From a virus: a DNA stretch of 22,575 bases. Each line of letters begins with the position of its first letter. Position 1 is the stretch's first letter. Made by a program: the position numbers and the translations under genes. The stretch lies in the IMG/VR virus record IMGVR_UViG_3300033143_001775, positions 1 to 22,575 of that record; one strand, given 5' to 3'. Shown here piece by piece: positions 3 through 5,639 of the stretch. Below the pieces are notes generated by a model. That model worked only from the letters and a program-made list of their open reading frames with translations, was not told where the DNA came from and did not search any database.

Positions 3-599
3 TTTCCTAAAGTTGACGAGGTAAAAACCAAATCAGTATCTACAGTTTGGACTTCCCAATGGAAAGCTATTAAAGGCATTCATAAACTACTTAAGCATAT
101 TCCTAAGATAAAAGGCAAGATGGACTTATATAGTTGCGGCATTCTATACTACCAATTGAGAACCTCTGACGATTGGTTAGCCGCTATTGGTAAAGATAAG
201 TTCAAAGGCTTTAATGGGAAAGGTAAAGCAACGTACCACGGTTGGATAGAGTTATTAGATATTCCCAAGGTACTAAGCAAAGCTTGGTTTATGATAGACC
301 TACAGGGAATGGGTAACCCTCGTTACAAAGTATATAAGCAAGGTTCGATTAATCTAACTACAGCCGAAGCTTTATACTATGGAGCGTGCCCTGTTCTTCA
401 CGAGCAAGTACTTGAGTCAGGAATACCTAAAGACTTAATTGTTGTCGTGGAAGACGAGAGTCAAGTTCCAAAAGCTATAGCGGATAATAAGAAGTTTGCG
501 TCAGACCCAAAGAGAATTAAGAAAGCTAAAGCTTGGGCTAACAAAAACTTTAATGTTAAACGCTTGTATGATAAAATCGTACTGGGAGAATTTAAATGA
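3..599 (+). CDS. Glycosyltransferase, GT-B type C-terminal part (5' end outside window)
   Basis: The frame is open from the left edge of the window, so the ATG at 120 is internal and the gene starts upstream. The visible 198 residues look like the nucleotide-sugar-binding half of a GT-B (GT4-like) glycosyltransferase. There is a segment of the form TSQWKAIKGIHKLLKHI, as in the 'K-G-x-x-x-L-L' helix of these enzymes. Near residue 120 there is NLTTAEALYYGACPVL, matching the E-A-x-x-x-G-x-P-V motif that contacts the sugar nucleotide. The stop overlaps the start of the deacetylase gene by 4 bases, so the two are translationally coupled. In this context the acceptor is plausibly a modified base in phage DNA, but that is inferred; a host-surface or protein glycosyltransferase is possible. 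Sugar donor unknown. Confidence 0.72.
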   Translation, partial: FPKVDEVKTKSVSTVWTSQWKAIKGIHKLLKHIPKIKGKMDLYSCGILYYQLRTSDDWLAAIGKDKFKGFNGKGKATYHGWIELLDIPKVLSKAWFMIDLQGMGNPRYKVYKQGSINLTTAEALYYGACPVLHEQVLESGIPKDLIVVVEDESQVPKAIADNKKFASDPKRIKKAKAWANKNFNVKRLYDKIVLGEFK

Positions 600-1147
600 A
601 AGTAATAATAGAGCCTCACGCAGATGACGCATTCCTTTCGTTAGGAGGGCATATTGATCAATGGATTAAATCGGGGGAACAAGTATTGATCGTTACGGTA
701 TACTCAGGAACCAGAAAGCGAGCATTGGACGCTCAAAATTATGCTCGTACAGTAAACGCTTCGTGGTTTGGAATGGAGTTTGACGAGGAAGATACGGAAG
801 AGTTGACTGCAAAATCTTTTTGGGATAAGATAGCCGAGGTTAAAAAGATACATAAGTTCAAATTGAACAATCTTATTTTTCCGCTAGGGCTTCAGCACCA
901 CGATCATTATTTTATAGCAGACTTAGCTCGAAAAAATAATGATCGGTATCTCGATACCCCTTACCATACTAAACAAAAGAACCACGAGGAGGTAAACGAG
1001 AAGATGGTAGGTCGCAAAGTAGTATCCTTTATGAAGCCTCACGCTCGTAAATGGAGGCACATACCTTTGTTTAAAGATCAAGCAAAGTTCTTTTATTACA
1101 ATCCCAAGGAGGCATTAGTACAATGTATAGAGCTAATCTTAAAATGA
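596..1147 (+). CDS. PIG-L/LmbE-family zinc deacetylase
   Basis: A 183-residue protein with the two signature motifs of PIG-L/LmbE deacetylases: PHADD at residues 7-11 (His8 and Asp11 as zinc ligand and base) and HHDH at 101-104 (His104 as further zinc ligand). The family removes the acetyl group from N-acetylglucosamine-type sugars on lipids, mycothiol precursors or antibiotics. The protein is shorter than most members (about 220-290 residues), a compact phage version. A GGGAGAA ribosome site precedes the ATG, which overlaps the glycosyltransferase stop. The pairing suggests that a transferred N-acetyl-hexosamine is deacetylated to a free amino sugar. Family assignment is firm; the substrate is inferred. 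Confidence 0.82.
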   Translation: MKVIIEPHADDAFLSLGGHIDQWIKSGEQVLIVTVYSGTRKRALDAQNYARTVNASWFGMEFDEEDTEELTAKSFWDKIAEVKKIHKFKLNNLIFPLGLQHHDHYFIADLARKNNDRYLDTPYHTKQKNHEEVNEKMVGRKVVSFMKPHARKWRHIPLFKDQAKFFYYNPKEALVQCIELILK

Positions 1148-2034
1148 TAAAAGGGTTTCTCAATTGGATGGCTGAGAGACATAGTATATACTTACGCAGA
1201 CTTAAGGGAGAACCTAAGCCTTGGACCAAAGATAAGATATTAAGAGACTTTAAATTTACAAATGTATTTCGTGAACTAGATAAAGTTACTATCTGGATAC
1301 GAGAGAATTGGAAAGAGCCTTATGCCGACCATCCTAACTTATGGTTTGCTATGTGCGTAGCTCGTCAAATCAATCATCCAGAAACTTTAAAAGAACTTGA
1401 GCCTTTAGTATTCGCTAAGACGTGGAACGCTAAGAAGGCAGCAAAGATAATGGATGCACGTAAAGCCCGAGGGGAGAAAGTTTACACTGGCGCTTATATG
1501 ATACGTGCGGAGTCAGATCCAAACAAAGAATGGTACTCGTGGTCTAAGAACTTATATATGACTGAAATTGTTTTAGGGCGTGTATGGAAAGCACGTAAAG
1601 ACTTTTACAAGCTAATGGAGACAGAACCTTCTCTTCAAGAAGTAAATGATTGGCTATGTACGTTCCATGGATGGGGAGGCTTTATGTCTTACGAAGTTAC
1701 AACCGACTTAAGGCACACAGGATACTTAGACCGCGCAAAAGATATTAAGACTTGGGCAAATCCTGGGCCAGGTGCTAAACGCGGCACTCATCGTATCTTA
1801 TTCAATACTCGTAGAGGGGACTTGCCTACAGGATTCAAACGCCCTGACTACCAACAAGCTATGCAGGAATTCTTAGCGGCAGCAAAAGATAAACTAGAAG
1901 GGACTGCTATATTTAAAGGTCATCGGTTTGAGATGAGAGATATAGAACATAGCTTGTGCGAGTTCGATAAGTATATGCGAGTTAAGAACGGAGAAGGCAG
2001 ACCCCGAAGCAGATACAATGGAGGCAAAGAATGA
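1123..2034 (+). CDS. 5-hmdU DNA kinase helical domain / alpha-glutamyl-putrescinyl-thymine pyrophosphorylase-like protein
   Basis: A 303-residue, mostly helical protein. It carries FKFTNVFRELDKVTIW at residues 43-58, HGWGGFMSYEVTTDLRHT at 182-199 and GPGAKRG at 215-221, which I recognise as conserved blocks of the phage family covering the helical domain of 5-hydroxymethyl-dU DNA kinases and the 'aGPT-Pplase' proteins. Some members of this superfamily were later shown to be amino-acid:DNA transferases. They act on 5-hmdU already in DNA, so they mark thymine hypermodification. The start at 1123 has AAGGAGG 10 bases upstream; an ATG at 1144 overlapping the deacetylase stop is possible but lacks a clear ribosome site. 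The kinase function, fused in some phages, may lie in the next gene. I cannot tell kinase partner from transferase. Confidence 0.68.
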   Translation: MYRANLKMIKGFLNWMAERHSIYLRRLKGEPKPWTKDKILRDFKFTNVFRELDKVTIWIRENWKEPYADHPNLWFAMCVARQINHPETLKELEPLVFAKTWNAKKAAKIMDARKARGEKVYTGAYMIRAESDPNKEWYSWSKNLYMTEIVLGRVWKARKDFYKLMETEPSLQEVNDWLCTFHGWGGFMSYEVTTDLRHTGYLDRAKDIKTWANPGPGAKRGTHRILFNTRRGDLPTGFKRPDYQQAMQEFLAAAKDKLEGTAIFKGHRFEMRDIEHSLCEFDKYMRVKNGEGRPRSRYNGGKE

Positions 2035-2414
2035 TACTTTGGCTAACAGGAAATACAGGAGCAGGTAAAACTACTCTAGCAAATTTCTTAGCTCCTTTGA
2101 TTCATAATGCTATTCTTGTAGACGGGGATACCTTAAGAAGTATGTGGGATAATACGGACATGTCCCCCGAAGGTCGTTGGAAGCATAATATTAAAGTCGC
2201 TCATTACGTAGAAGAGGTTCAAAAAGAAAATAAGGATTATAACATTATAGTATCTGTTATATGCCCTTATCGAACTTTGAGAAAGGAAGTAGCGGAAATT
2301 TGCGATTGTAAATTCATATACGTGGAAGGAGGTAAGAAGGGCGATGAGTTCCCTTATGATATACCTACTGACGAAGAACGTAGTGTAGCGTACAAAATAA
2401 CTTGGAGAAAATAA
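2031..2414 (+). CDS. APS-kinase-like P-loop kinase (short)
   Basis: A 127-residue P-loop kinase. Walker A is GNTGAGKT at residues 7-14, followed by VDGDTLR at 30-36, the D-M-S-x-E-x-R-x-x-x-N-I block at 43-54 and VICPYR at 76-81. This order is that of adenylylsulfate (APS) kinase, with CPYR in place of its SPYR. It lacks the usual C-terminal part (typical APS kinases are about 170-200 residues) and ends soon after FIYVEGG. Two readings fit: an APS kinase making PAPS for the adjacent sulfotransferase, or the kinase half of a split 5-hmdU DNA kinase working with the preceding helical protein. GGAGG lies just upstream, and the stop overlaps the next ATG by one base. The fold is clear; the substrate is open. 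Confidence 0.7.
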   Translation: MILWLTGNTGAGKTTLANFLAPLIHNAILVDGDTLRSMWDNTDMSPEGRWKHNIKVAHYVEEVQKENKDYNIIVSVICPYRTLRKEVAEICDCKFIYVEGGKKGDEFPYDIPTDEERSVAYKITWRK

Positions 2415-3022
2415 TGATAAGAATATTAGCGAACCCTCGAAGCGGTACAACAAGTTTATCTCGTACCTTGATAAAAGATTTAGGGCTTGATGTGCCTCAC
2501 GAGAAAGTAGGAGAGGATGGTACTGTGTCTTGTTTCTTTTGGACTGACTCTAAAATTTACCCTACCGGAAAGACAGGCAAACCCGCTCATCCAGGTGACG
2601 GAGTACCTAGTGAATATGATTGGGATAAGACTATTCATTTAGTTAGACATCCTTTAAAGTGCATTCCCTCTATGCGGTCTATCGTTGGACGCGACCAGCA
2701 ACAATGGCTATACGATAAAGGTTTGATACGAGATACTCATCGTAAACCCAAATTGCTTTTCTCTATGGAAGCTTGGTATGAAACTAACTTAGCTATTGAA
2801 CGTCTCAAGCCTAACTTCCGCATTCAAATAGAAAATGTAGATTGGAAGAAGTTAGGCAAAGCATTAGGCACTAAGCAAATACCGGAGGTCACCCGTCACC
2901 TTAATAGAGCAACGGGGTTCCTAGAGCCTAAGCCTATTGCTTGGGAAGATATGGAAGCTTTAGATTCTAAACTAACAGCCAAGATAAAAAGAATGGCTCT
3001 CAAATATAAATACGAGGTTTGA
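2414..3022 (+). CDS. PAPS-dependent sulfotransferase-like protein
   Basis: A 202-residue protein. NPRSGTTSLSRTL at residues 7-19 matches the 5'-phosphosulfate loop of sulfotransferases (P-x-x-G-T-T). VRHPLKCIPSM at 77-87 matches the 3'-phosphate site, with Arg78 and Ser86 eight residues apart as usual. The family moves sulfate from PAPS to hydroxyls or amines of sugars, lipids or proteins. I place the start at 2414, where GGAG lies 6 bases upstream and the ATG overlaps the kinase stop; an upstream TTG at 2402 is less likely. Position after an APS-kinase-like gene and beside glycosyltransferase, deacetylase and thymine-modification genes suggests that the acceptor is modified DNA, but that is inference. 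Confidence 0.72.
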   Translation: MIRILANPRSGTTSLSRTLIKDLGLDVPHEKVGEDGTVSCFFWTDSKIYPTGKTGKPAHPGDGVPSEYDWDKTIHLVRHPLKCIPSMRSIVGRDQQQWLYDKGLIRDTHRKPKLLFSMEAWYETNLAIERLKPNFRIQIENVDWKKLGKALGTKQIPEVTRHLNRATGFLEPKPIAWEDMEALDSKLTAKIKRMALKYKYEV

Positions 3023-3023
3023 T

Positions 3024-4031
3024 ATGAGAACAATAGAAGTTAAAAATGTAAATGAGGTGCTACCGTTAGCTCTACAAATGCTAGCTGTACACGGTAAAGA
3101 AATATCCCCACGGGGCATTCTTACTTTGGAACCTGTAACTACAACTTATCTGCGACCTTGCGAACGGGTTATGCTAGTTCCAGAACGTGACGCCAATCCT
3201 TTCTTTCATTTAATGGAAGCACTTTGGATTCTTCAAGGTCGTCAAGACGTAGCTTGGCTGACGCAATTTAATAAGAATATGGAACTCTATAGTGATGACG
3301 GAGCTATCTTCCACGCGCCTTACGGTCAGAGACTTCGCCACCAACAAGGATTCGACCAAATAAGATCAGCGATAAACTTATTGATAGCGGACAAAGATAC
3401 TCGCCAATGCGTTATGCAAATATGGGATGCTTCTTGCGACCTTGGGATAAAGAGTAAGGACATCCCTTGTAATGATCTCATCTTCTTAAAGATAAGAGAT
3501 AACAAATTAAATATGACGGTTTGTAATCGGTCTAATGATGTTATATGGGGAGCGTATGGGGCGAACGTAGTTCAGTTCAGTATGATCCAAGAGTATATAG
3601 CAGGGAAAGTAGGCGTCAAAGTGGGAGTGTATAATCAAGTATCCGACAGCTTCCACGTATATCCCGACAATCCGCAGTTTGAAGCTTTGGTTCAACTACC
3701 TTATACAGACTTCAATCCTTATAAGTATGAAGTAACTCCTTACCCTTTAGCTACATGGTTGGACGGTTGGGATGACGAACTCGCTTTGTTTTGTAGTATG
3801 GTTGACCCTGACCCTTCTATTGATAGTGCTCCTATCTTAAGTAAGGTGCGTGAGGGAGAATCTATGTTTCAAATACCGTTCTTTGTAGACGTAGCCATCC
3901 CAATGTATAATTGTTGGATAGGGCATAAGATATCTCTCAACGGATTAATGCTAGTCGATAGTATAAAAGCTTCAGACTGGCGTTTGGCGGCAACGCAATG
4001 GTTAACTAAACGGGAGCAAGTAAATGACTAA
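3024..4031 (+). CDS. Thymidylate synthase homologue, probable dUMP hydroxymethylase
   Basis: A 335-residue member of the thymidylate synthase / dNMP hydroxymethylase superfamily. Visible landmarks are the FHLMEALWILQG helix with Glu65, YGQRLR at 100-105, the catalytic Cys149 in IPCND, CNRSND at 167-172 with the phosphate-binding Arg169, and DSFHVY at 208-213. Cys149 is followed by Asn instead of the His of true thymidylate synthases (PCN versus PCH). The Asn that reads uracil appears kept as Asn181 in GAYGANVV, so dUMP rather than dCMP is the likely substrate. The product would be 5-hydroxymethyl-dUMP, the precursor of 5-hmdU DNA. This fits the neighbouring genes, but true dTMP synthesis cannot be excluded. 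GAGG precedes the ATG. Confidence 0.83.
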   Translation: MRTIEVKNVNEVLPLALQMLAVHGKEISPRGILTLEPVTTTYLRPCERVMLVPERDANPFFHLMEALWILQGRQDVAWLTQFNKNMELYSDDGAIFHAPYGQRLRHQQGFDQIRSAINLLIADKDTRQCVMQIWDASCDLGIKSKDIPCNDLIFLKIRDNKLNMTVCNRSNDVIWGAYGANVVQFSMIQEYIAGKVGVKVGVYNQVSDSFHVYPDNPQFEALVQLPYTDFNPYKYEVTPYPLATWLDGWDDELALFCSMVDPDPSIDSAPILSKVREGESMFQIPFFVDVAIPMYNCWIGHKISLNGLMLVDSIKASDWRLAATQWLTKREQVND

Positions 4032-4230
4032 CGAACAACAACAATGGATAGAGAACGCGACCTATGAAGAACTATTAAAGCGGTGGCGGTTCGCTAAAGA
4101 TTCCGATACTATCTTTCAAGAAGATGCGGGGTCATACTACCAAGACCAAATGAATAAAAAGAAAGCTATGTTGGCAGCAGCAGAGCAAGTCGTAATAAGT
4201 AAACGAATTGGATGGAGTAAAATATCATGA
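4024..4230 (+). CDS. Small conserved phage protein, function unknown
   Basis: A 68-residue hydrophilic protein beginning 8 bases inside the end of the thymidylate-synthase-like gene, with GGGAG upstream of its ATG. The central block, YEELLKRWRFA followed by SYYQDQMNKKKA, resembles a small protein I have seen in many siphoviruses, but I know no function. The sequence is largely helical, with no Cys cluster, signal peptide or membrane segment. Its stop overlaps the start of the HD-domain gene (ATGA), placing it firmly in the nucleotide-modification operon. It could be an accessory subunit of a neighbouring enzyme; nothing in the sequence proves this. Confidence 0.75.
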   Translation: MTNEQQQWIENATYEELLKRWRFAKDSDTIFQEDAGSYYQDQMNKKKAMLAAAEQVVISKRIGWSKIS

Positions 4231-4796
4231 GTTTAAAATGGTTACAAACTGCGAGACACGGGGGATTGGTAAAAAGATGCCATACAGTTCCTTCCTTACA
4301 ATCTTATAATGTAGCGGAGCATTCTTTCAATGCGATACTTATAGCTCACACTATTTGTAAAGACCTTGATTGGAAAGTTAGATACGATAGTGCTGAACAT
4401 TCCCGTTGGCTAAATATTGACGAGGCTAAAATCACTCACTACCTTTTACTGCACGACTTACCAGAAGGGTATACGGGAGACATACCTGCTAATGTTAAGA
4501 AAGAAACTAACATTAAATCGGTCATGGATAGAATCGAAGAAGAATGGTACAATAAGCACGTACCAGACTATATGAAGCAAACTATAACCGACCATGAATA
4601 TGTAGTCGCTAAGTTAGCAGACGTATTGGAACTTTGCATGTTTTGTAAAGACGAAATACAAATGGGTAACCATCATCCCGCTATGGTCTTAATGGCCGAC
4701 CGAGCTTCAGCTTACGCTTTAAACTACTCTGAAGGATTAGGGCACATCCCTTCTATTGTAAAATCTATTGTTGACGACTTAAGGAACCTATTATGA
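4227..4796 (+). CDS. HD-domain 5'-deoxynucleotidase, YfbR-like
   Basis: A 189-residue HD hydrolase resembling E. coli YfbR, which removes phosphate from deoxynucleoside 5'-monophosphates. Metal ligands are seen at His32 (VAEHS), His76-Asp77 (LLHDLPE) and Asp132 (KLADVLE), followed by the GDIPANVKK segment typical of this group. The YfbR Arg-Trp pair near residue 18 is Arg17-Cys18 here, so the Trp that helps shape the sugar pocket is missing. In a phage that replaces thymine, such an enzyme could deplete dTMP or control dUMP/hmdUMP. It overlaps both neighbours by 4 bases (ATGA). Family is sure; preferred nucleotide is inferred. Confidence 0.85.
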   Translation: MSLKWLQTARHGGLVKRCHTVPSLQSYNVAEHSFNAILIAHTICKDLDWKVRYDSAEHSRWLNIDEAKITHYLLLHDLPEGYTGDIPANVKKETNIKSVMDRIEEEWYNKHVPDYMKQTITDHEYVVAKLADVLELCMFCKDEIQMGNHHPAMVLMADRASAYALNYSEGLGHIPSIVKSIVDDLRNLL

Positions 4797-5170
4797 GTAA
4801 TGAGTTTATGAATATAAAATTAGATTCCGATATAGCGGAAAAGATTGCGTTGGGCGATGTTACTGCTCTTGAAGAAGCGGAGAAGTCATATGGCGATTCG
4901 TGGAAGCGTAGAGGCGGTACAGATAGCTTTATGATGCTTGCTCGTAAGTGGGACAGGATAGAGAACCAATGTCGCAAACATAACTTTAATATATTGACTG
5001 CCTGTTCTGTCGACCAACGCGCTGAAGGTATCATTGACGACATCAGAGACTTGAGACGCTACTTGGTACTTGTCGAACAAGAAATGATCCAGCGAGGGGG
5101 AGCGATACCCGAGATACCAAAAGGGGAGGGCGAAGCGGGAAGCGGATATGTAGACCAAGATAAGTCCTAG
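4793..5170 (+). CDS. Conserved phage protein, possibly Nmad1/DUF1599-like
   Basis: A 125-residue soluble protein, the last gene of the + strand operon, overlapping the HD gene by 4 bases with AAGGA upstream. The core reads YGDSWKRRGG, then FMMLARKWDRIE, then IIDDIRDLRRYLVLVEQEM, a helical arrangement common in phage proteins. It recalls the YG-x-S-W block of the nucleotide-modification-associated domain 1 (DUF1599), but I could not verify this. The tail after about residue 103 is Gly/Glu-rich and probably disordered. Its place in a base-modification operon suggests nucleotide handling; no catalytic residues are evident. Confidence 0.65.
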   Translation: MSNEFMNIKLDSDIAEKIALGDVTALEEAEKSYGDSWKRRGGTDSFMMLARKWDRIENQCRKHNFNILTACSVDQRAEGIIDDIRDLRRYLVLVEQEMIQRGGAIPEIPKGEGEAGSGYVDQDKS

Positions 5171-5408: not shown

Positions 5409-5639
5409 CTACAAATTCCCGCAGTTTCCATATTGTCTACATACACAACAGGAATATCTTTTACAGTTAACGCTCTGGACAGGAATATCTTTTACAGTTA
5501 ACGCTCTGGCGTATGGCGGCAAAGGTTCCAAAGATGTTATAGGCTTACTTCTTTGCATTGGCGGCAACGGCACTCCTGTTGAACACCCGTAGAAAATCAA
5601 CACCACCATTAGAACAAATAGTAACTTTACTTGCTTCAT
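5409..5639 (-). CDS. Rz1: Rz1-like outer-membrane spanin lipoprotein, C-terminus altered by a duplication
   Basis: A 76-residue prolipoprotein: a basic start, a hydrophobic signal and the lipobox FYGC with Cys19, then a Pro-rich segment (GVPLPP, LEPLPPY) typical of Rz1. It begins inside the Rz gene in another frame, the standard nested arrangement, and GGAG lies upstream of the ATG. Rz1 is lipidated in the outer membrane and joins Rz to fuse the membranes at the end of lysis. A perfect 31-bp tandem duplication (5448-5509) shifts the frame after KDIPV and gives an odd Cys-rich end. With one copy removed, the frame runs on through LLGLQNWVEIGYRKK to a TAG at 5342-5344, a more believable spanin tail. 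The gene may therefore be mutated or wrongly assembled. Confidence 0.75.
   Translation of the reverse strand: MKQVKLLFVLMVVLIFYGCSTGVPLPPMQRSKPITSLEPLPPYARALTVKDIPVQSVNCKRYSCCVCRQYGNCGNL
5448..5509. repeat. Perfect 31-bp tandem duplication inside Rz1
   Basis: Bases 5448-5478 are repeated exactly at 5479-5509. The match ends sharply at both sides, with no extra shared base at the junction. As 31 is not a multiple of three, it frameshifts the 3' part of the Rz1-like gene. Confidence 0.95.

Follow-up and report, generated by a model that had tools for sequence, protein, structure and literature searches.

How a phage could come to place a sugar, and perhaps a sulfate, on the bases of its own DNA is the question raised by the IMG/VR record IMGVR_UViG_3300033143_001775. 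This record is a 22,575-base fragment of one phage, and the window studied here spans the whole of it. Judged from the sequence, genes in the left part of the window probably turn the thymine of the phage's own DNA into a bulky, sugar-bearing base, which is possibly also sulfated. These genes form a plus-strand operon whose neighbours overlap or almost abut. The operon may be a glycosyl-type phage thymidine-hypermodification cassette with a sulfation step, a reading for and against which we hold the chances to be even. The first-pass annotation had described five overlapping genes followed by a homologue of thymidylate synthase (TS), and all of these open reading frames (ORFs) are present in that order. 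The operon is composed as follows.

3..599, plus strand: C-terminal part only of a GT-B (GT4-like) glycosyltransferase (GT), the gene being cut by the contig end; 47% identity to the GT of locus L003, and family profile matching BshA.
596..1147, plus strand: PIG-L/LmbE-family N-deacetylase with the metal-site motifs PHADD and HxxH; PF02585 at 1.3e-6, over the cut-off.
1123..2034, plus strand (alternative start ATG 1144): protein of amino acid:DNA transferase (AADT) type (PF18723, aGPT-Pplase1 / HMUDK_hel), homologue of gp55 of phage M6; PF18723 at 8e-56.
2031..2414, plus strand: short P-loop kinase of the adenosine 5'-phosphosulfate (APS) kinase family, without the substrate lid; PF01583 at 3e-12.
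2414..3022, plus strand: sulfotransferase-like protein of 202 aa, of the type using 3'-phosphoadenosine 5'-phosphosulfate (PAPS), with NPRSGTT and RHPLKCIPSM; PF13469 at 4e-5, under the cut-off.
3024..4031, plus strand: TS homologue, probable deoxyuridine monophosphate (dUMP) hydroxymethylase; phrog_5131 at 3.5e-106.
4024..4230, plus strand: small operon ORF without a family match.
4227..4796, plus strand: HD-domain YfbR-like 5'-deoxynucleotidase, probably for nucleotide-pool control; PF12917 at 4.8e-15, in the position of M6 gp59.
4793..5170, plus strand: small conserved protein at the operon end, without a family match; recurs in about 25 AADT loci.

The AADT-type protein is about 46% identical to gp55 of Pseudomonas phage M6, which matches PF18723 equally well (8e-56), and an alignment showed every family-wide invariant AADT residue in the window protein. 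It had been taken for an accessory helical protein; homology to PF18723 and M6 gp55 places it instead as an AADT-type enzyme central to the pathway. The predicted model is confident and all-helical (pLDDT 92). Comparison with the PDB by sequence, profile and fold gave no significant match, the weak top fold matches being helix-hairpin-helix DNA glycosylases, and the GTDB genomes yielded a single 28% match, in a metagenome-assembled genome. M6 gp55 is reportedly a glycine transferase, as Lee et al. are said to have described. For the TS homologue, the closest PDB entry is cytidine monophosphate (CMP) 5-hydroxymethylase (6e-21), and an Asn (YGAN) is found at the position of the Asp in that enzyme. 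Asn at this position of the TS family is expected for a uracil substrate; the protein is probably a dUMP hydroxymethylase.

The gene order of M6 is gp54 (the 5-hydroxymethyl-deoxyuridine (5-hmdU) DNA kinase, 5-HMUDK), gp55 (PF18723), gp56, gp57, gp58 (TS), gp59 (HD), gp60, gp61 and DNA polymerase. Although its annotation reads terminase small subunit, gp54 (L001:3686-4249) matches the 5-HMUDK family PF18748 at 7.7e-18. M6 DNA carries 5-(2-aminoethyl)dU, which is made via 5-hmdU and a phosphorylated intermediate (PMC6449724). The AADT homologue, TS homologue, HD nucleotidase and small genes stand in the same order in the window as in M6 and the Yuavirus group. Because the AADT-type gene adjoins a dUMP-hydroxymethylase-like TS in M6 gene order, the window is read as a 5-hmdU hypermodification locus, as the first-pass annotation had proposed. 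The two differ in their other genes: M6 has 5-HMUDK and the tailoring genes gp51-gp53, whereas the window has the GT, PIG-L, APS-kinase-like and sulfotransferase genes, and no kinase of the PF18748 type was found within this 22.6 kb fragment, an incomplete record.

This difference recurs across AADT loci. In this study, 87 AADT neighbourhoods were labelled, comprising 80 IMG/VR loci retrieved by means of the AADT protein, M6, the window and loci found through PIG-L. 5-HMUDK was present in 20 of them, and 58, including the window, had at least one of the following: TET-associated glycosyltransferase (TAGT, PF20691), a GT of the window type, PIG-L and the sulfotransferase. No neighbourhood combined 5-HMUDK with any of these. 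The chance of such zero overlap is 4e-13 under independence, and 9e-9 after clustering at 60% AADT identity (with one mixed cluster), remaining relatedness being ignored. Of 44 other whole records of the non-kinase kind, many of them 40-76 kb long, 43 had no match to the 5-HMUDK profile. In the AADT tree, the kinase and glycosyl kinds are interleaved, and the window falls in a clade (support 99/97) with M6 and L020, both of the kinase kind, and with L085 and L086, which have GT plus PIG-L. Residues conserved at 90% or more in one class are nearly all identical in the other, indicating that in the glycosyl kind, too, the AADT-type enzyme is not a leftover. AADT-type enzymes thus occur in two exclusive settings while keeping the same invariant residues, which raises the biochemical question, independent of sulfation, of how they act without phosphorylated hmdU.

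Where 5-HMUDK is absent, TAGT is the most frequent AADT partner. A minimal set of TAGT, AADT-type protein and TS homologue, with no recognised 5-hmdU kinase, was seen in 42 loci (e.g. L071:8500-12500, L004 and L060). In L023:5980-7933, L065:13905-15984 and L048:13394-15305, the AADT and TS genes enclose genes for APH-fold kinase-like, HAD-like and MobA-like nucleotidyltransferase proteins; to judge by their families, these genes look as if they provide DNA with an activated sugar or amine.

The genes of the operon were found together again in distant phages, so their co-occurrence goes beyond chance. No close DNA relative of the window was found in the phage collection searched, and among cultured phages none had the cassette, nor were relatives of its PIG-L and GT found there. 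The window GT fragment has no significant Pfam match of its own; the relative in L015 matches PF00534 at 1.3e-4, under the cut-off. A profile of nine GT relatives (A8) matches GT4 enzymes in the PDB, the best being the N-acetylglucosamine (GlcNAc)-malate synthase BshA (8e-6). The PIG-L protein scores 29.4 bits on PF02585 (cut-off 28.2), and its PHADD and HxxH zinc motifs are invariant across seven PIG-L sequences. Against the PDB, the PIG-L profile matched teicoplanin deacetylases (1e-8) and a BshB-type deacetylase (3e-3). A window-type GT adjoins PIG-L, or lies at most two genes from it, in six phages including the window. This recurrence and the BshA-/LmbE-type profile matches agree with the first-pass view of the two genes as an aminosugar pair, which from their sequences is what they look like.

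Bacillithiol (BshA/BshB) and mycothiol (MshA/MshB) synthesis likewise use an adjacent GT4 GlcNAc transferase and PIG-L deacetylase. The window pair differs in sitting in phage DNA modification, with a DNA base as presumed acceptor, and in its distant sequences; by analogy, the logic of these thiol pathways is nevertheless a closer parallel for the pair than heparan. A search with the PIG-L sequence itself returned seven relatives, and in six cases the record has AADT and a TS homologue as well. The seventh is in the T4-like record IMGVR_UViG_3300010371_000033 (L101:7458-10549), where two ORFs separate PIG-L from a GT of the window type, and no AADT or TS homologue was found in it.

The translation start of the sulfotransferase-like protein is likely ATG 2414, which overlaps the upstream stop codon; TTG 2402 is less likely. 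Together with eight relatives, the protein forms a subfamily whose nine members all occur in phages with an AADT gene or a gene of the second amino acid:DNA transferase family, PF18724 (ADDT). The two PAPS-type motifs reported earlier, the 5'-phosphosulfate loop NPRSGTT and the 3'-phosphate motif RHPLKCIPSM, are present and are conserved across the nine-member alignment, which contains the blocks G-x-x-R-S/C-G-T-T, D-x-x-W-Y-P, G-E-R-R-S-D-Y/F, R-x-P-x-x-x-I-x-S and N-x-x-x-G. The first block is without the Walker A lysine of nucleotide kinases, reading GTT where kinases have GKT/S. The 3'-phosphate-type Arg is kept throughout, and the Ser in all members except that of L083. The predicted model (pLDDT 73) gave PDB fold matches to SULT7A1, 3-OST-3 and DHEA sulfotransferase (E about 1e-2, TM 0.37-0.51), and in BFVD it matched viral sulfotransferases at 1.6e-4 to 1e-3.

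Eight of the subfamily phages have a PF18723 AADT: the window, L015, L023, L024, L026, L027/L106, L065 and L083. The sulfotransferase lies between AADT and TS in L015, L023, L024, L026, L065 and L083, and in L027/L106 it joins the AADT-TS genes across the record's two ends if the record is circular. The ninth phage, L108:8367-13697 (IMGVR_UViG_3300038441_001101), has in a row a PF18724 ADDT (3.5e-20), a subfamily sulfotransferase, an HMUDK-like P-loop kinase and a radical SAM-TAGT fusion. PF18724 is unrelated to PF18723. This second, differently built hypermodification locus shares the sulfotransferase subfamily of the window and is the most informative of the nine cases. L106 and L108 came from scans that took the sulfotransferase, and not AADT, as their starting point. 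The sole matches outside AADT loci were the distant sulfotransferases L091-L098, which were left out of the supporting evidence. In cultured phages only a distant 28% match was found, in a Kyanoviridae phage and outside a base-modification context; the scan made of GTDB genomes found no relatives. Wide occurrence of these genes in phages without base modification, named by the first-pass annotation as a finding that would speak against it, was looked for and not seen: an AADT or ADDT gene accompanies seven of eight PIG-L records and all nine sulfotransferase members.

Some AADT loci also carry a family of about 310 aa, c29 (L024:11615-12547, L026:4762-5724, L083:12665-13609, L027, L033 and L035), which in four of them lies at most one gene from the sulfotransferase. 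c29 has no match in Pfam or, by profile, in the PDB, and hhalign gave none either; these comparisons lend no support to c29 as a glycosyltransferase, and it was not counted as a GT.

The supply of PAPS is less clear. The window kinase (127 aa) has the P-loop LTGNTGAGKTT, VDGD and GRWKHN, and we take the Arg and Asn of the GRWKHN region to be APS contacts. Its best PDB match is an adenylyl-sulfate kinase (1e-11). Aligned with a complete phage APS kinase, it shows a gap over DPKGLYxRAxxGxxxGLTG, so the lid segment is absent, and it reaches 45.8 bits on the NCBIfam model apsK, about one third of the curated cut-off of 138.7. On these grounds we do not name it an APS kinase, and as a 5-HMUDK it was rejected by profile, with Walker A alone in common. 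The APS-kinase-like enzyme of the earlier annotation thus belongs to the APS-kinase family, but it is doubtful whether this gene supplies PAPS. A further weak match (1.2e-4) is to the Gar/GrdA gentamicin-resistance ATP-binding family, and no relatives of the kinase were found in IMG/VR or in other AADT loci. A complete APS kinase is encoded by the L024 phage (L103:8919-9533; PF01583 at 9e-61, intact DGD and DPKGLY), about 20 kb from its sulfotransferase; none was found in 44 other records or in a further 14 searched. A gene of the APS-kinase family is present in two of nine sulfotransferase phages and in none of 52 others (P about 0.02), which is suggestive only. Most hosts make PAPS anyway.

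A possible pathway can be drawn from these genes. By homology, the TS homologue would make 5-hydroxymethyl-dUMP, which would enter the phage DNA, and the AADT-type protein would act on the 5-position of the hydroxymethylated base. The GT4-like enzyme may attach an N-acetylated sugar, with GlcNAc as the likeliest candidate, either to the base itself or to a side arm on it; such a glycosyl route would replace or accompany the phosphorylated bases with amino acids that M6 has. PIG-L could then strip off the acetyl, which would yield an aminosugar. The sulfotransferase could add sulfate from PAPS to the finished side group, on a sugar hydroxyl, an amine or the amino-acid arm. The donor may be host PAPS, and in some relatives kinases encoded by the phage might raise its supply. 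Through its bulk, the added group would shield the phage DNA from host nucleases. What the sequences show directly is the genes, their family assignments at the strengths given above and the associations that recur; the presence of hmdU in the DNA, GlcNAc as donor, deacetylation on the DNA and sulfation are what we infer from them.

The first-pass annotation saw here the logic of heparan sulfate N-deacetylase/N-sulfotransferase (NDST), in which deacetylation precedes N-sulfation. The window does resemble NDST in having a deacetylase and a PAPS-type sulfotransferase within one operon, but its PIG-L is a separate protein, and elsewhere the sulfotransferase mostly occurs without a deacetylase. 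None of the eight other sulfotransferase loci has PIG-L, none of the other PIG-L loci has the sulfotransferase, and the two co-occur in the window alone. N-sulfation is therefore not favoured, and the heparan analogy is weak.

Nor would a negatively charged hypermodified base be new as such. Bacillus phage SP-15 carries glucose and phosphoglucuronate on dihydroxypentyl-uracil, likewise a sugar-bearing thymine replacement with extra negative charge, although there the charge comes from phosphate rather than sulfate and the genes are others (PMC5977210). Glycosylation of T6 type by TAGT (PF20691), which in T6 acts on glucosyl-hmC (PMC13216743), also differs from the window, where a GT-B type enzyme is used with PIG-L. 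Known handles on 5-hydroxymethyl-pyrimidines are glycosylated, aminated or carbamoylated (PMC12783734). Sulfation, if true, would extend DNA modification by one chemical group and by PAPS as a cofactor, both new to it, and this would be the first DNA base to bear a sulfate ester or sulfamate. The literature searched, whose coverage omitted the main field papers Iyer 2013, Lee 2018, Lee 2021 and Wen 2024, yielded no description of a DNA base with sulfate. Such a base would be easy to detect through its mass (+80 Da) and would matter for work with restriction enzymes and for sequencing chemistry.

What stands of the proposed sulfated base is a sulfotransferase subfamily tied to DNA hypermodification genes in nine phages; the sulfation itself is what we infer. 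We think it possible, at a little below an even chance, that the DNA of some phages contains a 5-hydroxymethyl-uracil derivative whose arm, a sugar or an amino acid, receives sulfate from PAPS through a phage sulfotransferase. Several findings weigh against the cassette reading. The window GT is truncated by the contig edge, and in four sulfotransferase loci a recognised GT is replaced by the uncharacterised family c29. The window sulfotransferase scores 24.3 bits on PF13469 against a cut-off of 27, its PDB fold matches are weak and mixed with P-loop kinases, and the L108 member has Gln where others have the candidate catalytic Glu. An APS-kinase-family gene accompanies only two of the nine sulfotransferases, and the AADT-type protein stands there without a recognisable 5-hmdU kinase.

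The end product may instead be a phosphorylated or plain aminosugar base, with the APS-kinase-like protein phosphorylating 5-hmdU or the aminosugar, and the sulfotransferase-like protein being inactive or binding a base or nucleotide. In favour of this are the window kinase, which keeps the P-loop, DGD and R/N region and not the APS lid, its weak Gar/GrdA match, the APH-fold kinase-like genes at the same position in L023, L065 and L048, and the modest fold evidence for the sulfotransferase. We regard this as unlikely: the kinase shares just Walker A with 5-HMUDK and has no relative in other AADT loci, and both cofactor motifs are kept in the sulfotransferase subfamily despite wide divergence. 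The sulfotransferase might otherwise serve as an activator, sulfating the hydroxymethyl of 5-hmdU so that AADT displaces the sulfate with an amino acid; sulfate would then replace the phosphate of 5-HMUDK, and the final base would be sulfate-free. In hydroxymethyl aromatics, a sulfate ester makes a good leaving group; the M6-type 5-hmdU kinase is missing from each of the eight sulfotransferase loci that have a PF18723 AADT; and the AADT active residues are unchanged between classes. Yet in more than 40 AADT loci both the kinase and the sulfotransferase are missing, so a locus that lacks the one need not have the other in its place, and L108 holds sulfotransferase, ADDT and HMUDK-like kinase together; we consider the activator role still more doubtful. 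Least probable, and by our estimate quite improbable, is that the GT, PIG-L and sulfotransferase decorate a non-DNA target, such as a virion glycan or host surface polysaccharide, and are only neighbours of the DNA-modification genes. Glycan genes do surround distant relatives of the sulfotransferase (L091), but in many unrelated phages the genes in question are part of the AADT-TS transcription unit, members of the close subfamily were found solely with AADT or ADDT, and GT, PIG-L or sulfotransferase never share a PF18723 locus neighbourhood with the 5-hmdU kinase.

The right part of the window is a minus-strand block of endolysin, tail fibre, tape measure, tail tube, ClpP-capsid fusion and portal genes. 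Beside the lysis genes, a short lipoprotein-like ORF (5409-5639, minus strand), with a Cys after a signal-like stretch, is possibly an Rz1-type spanin.

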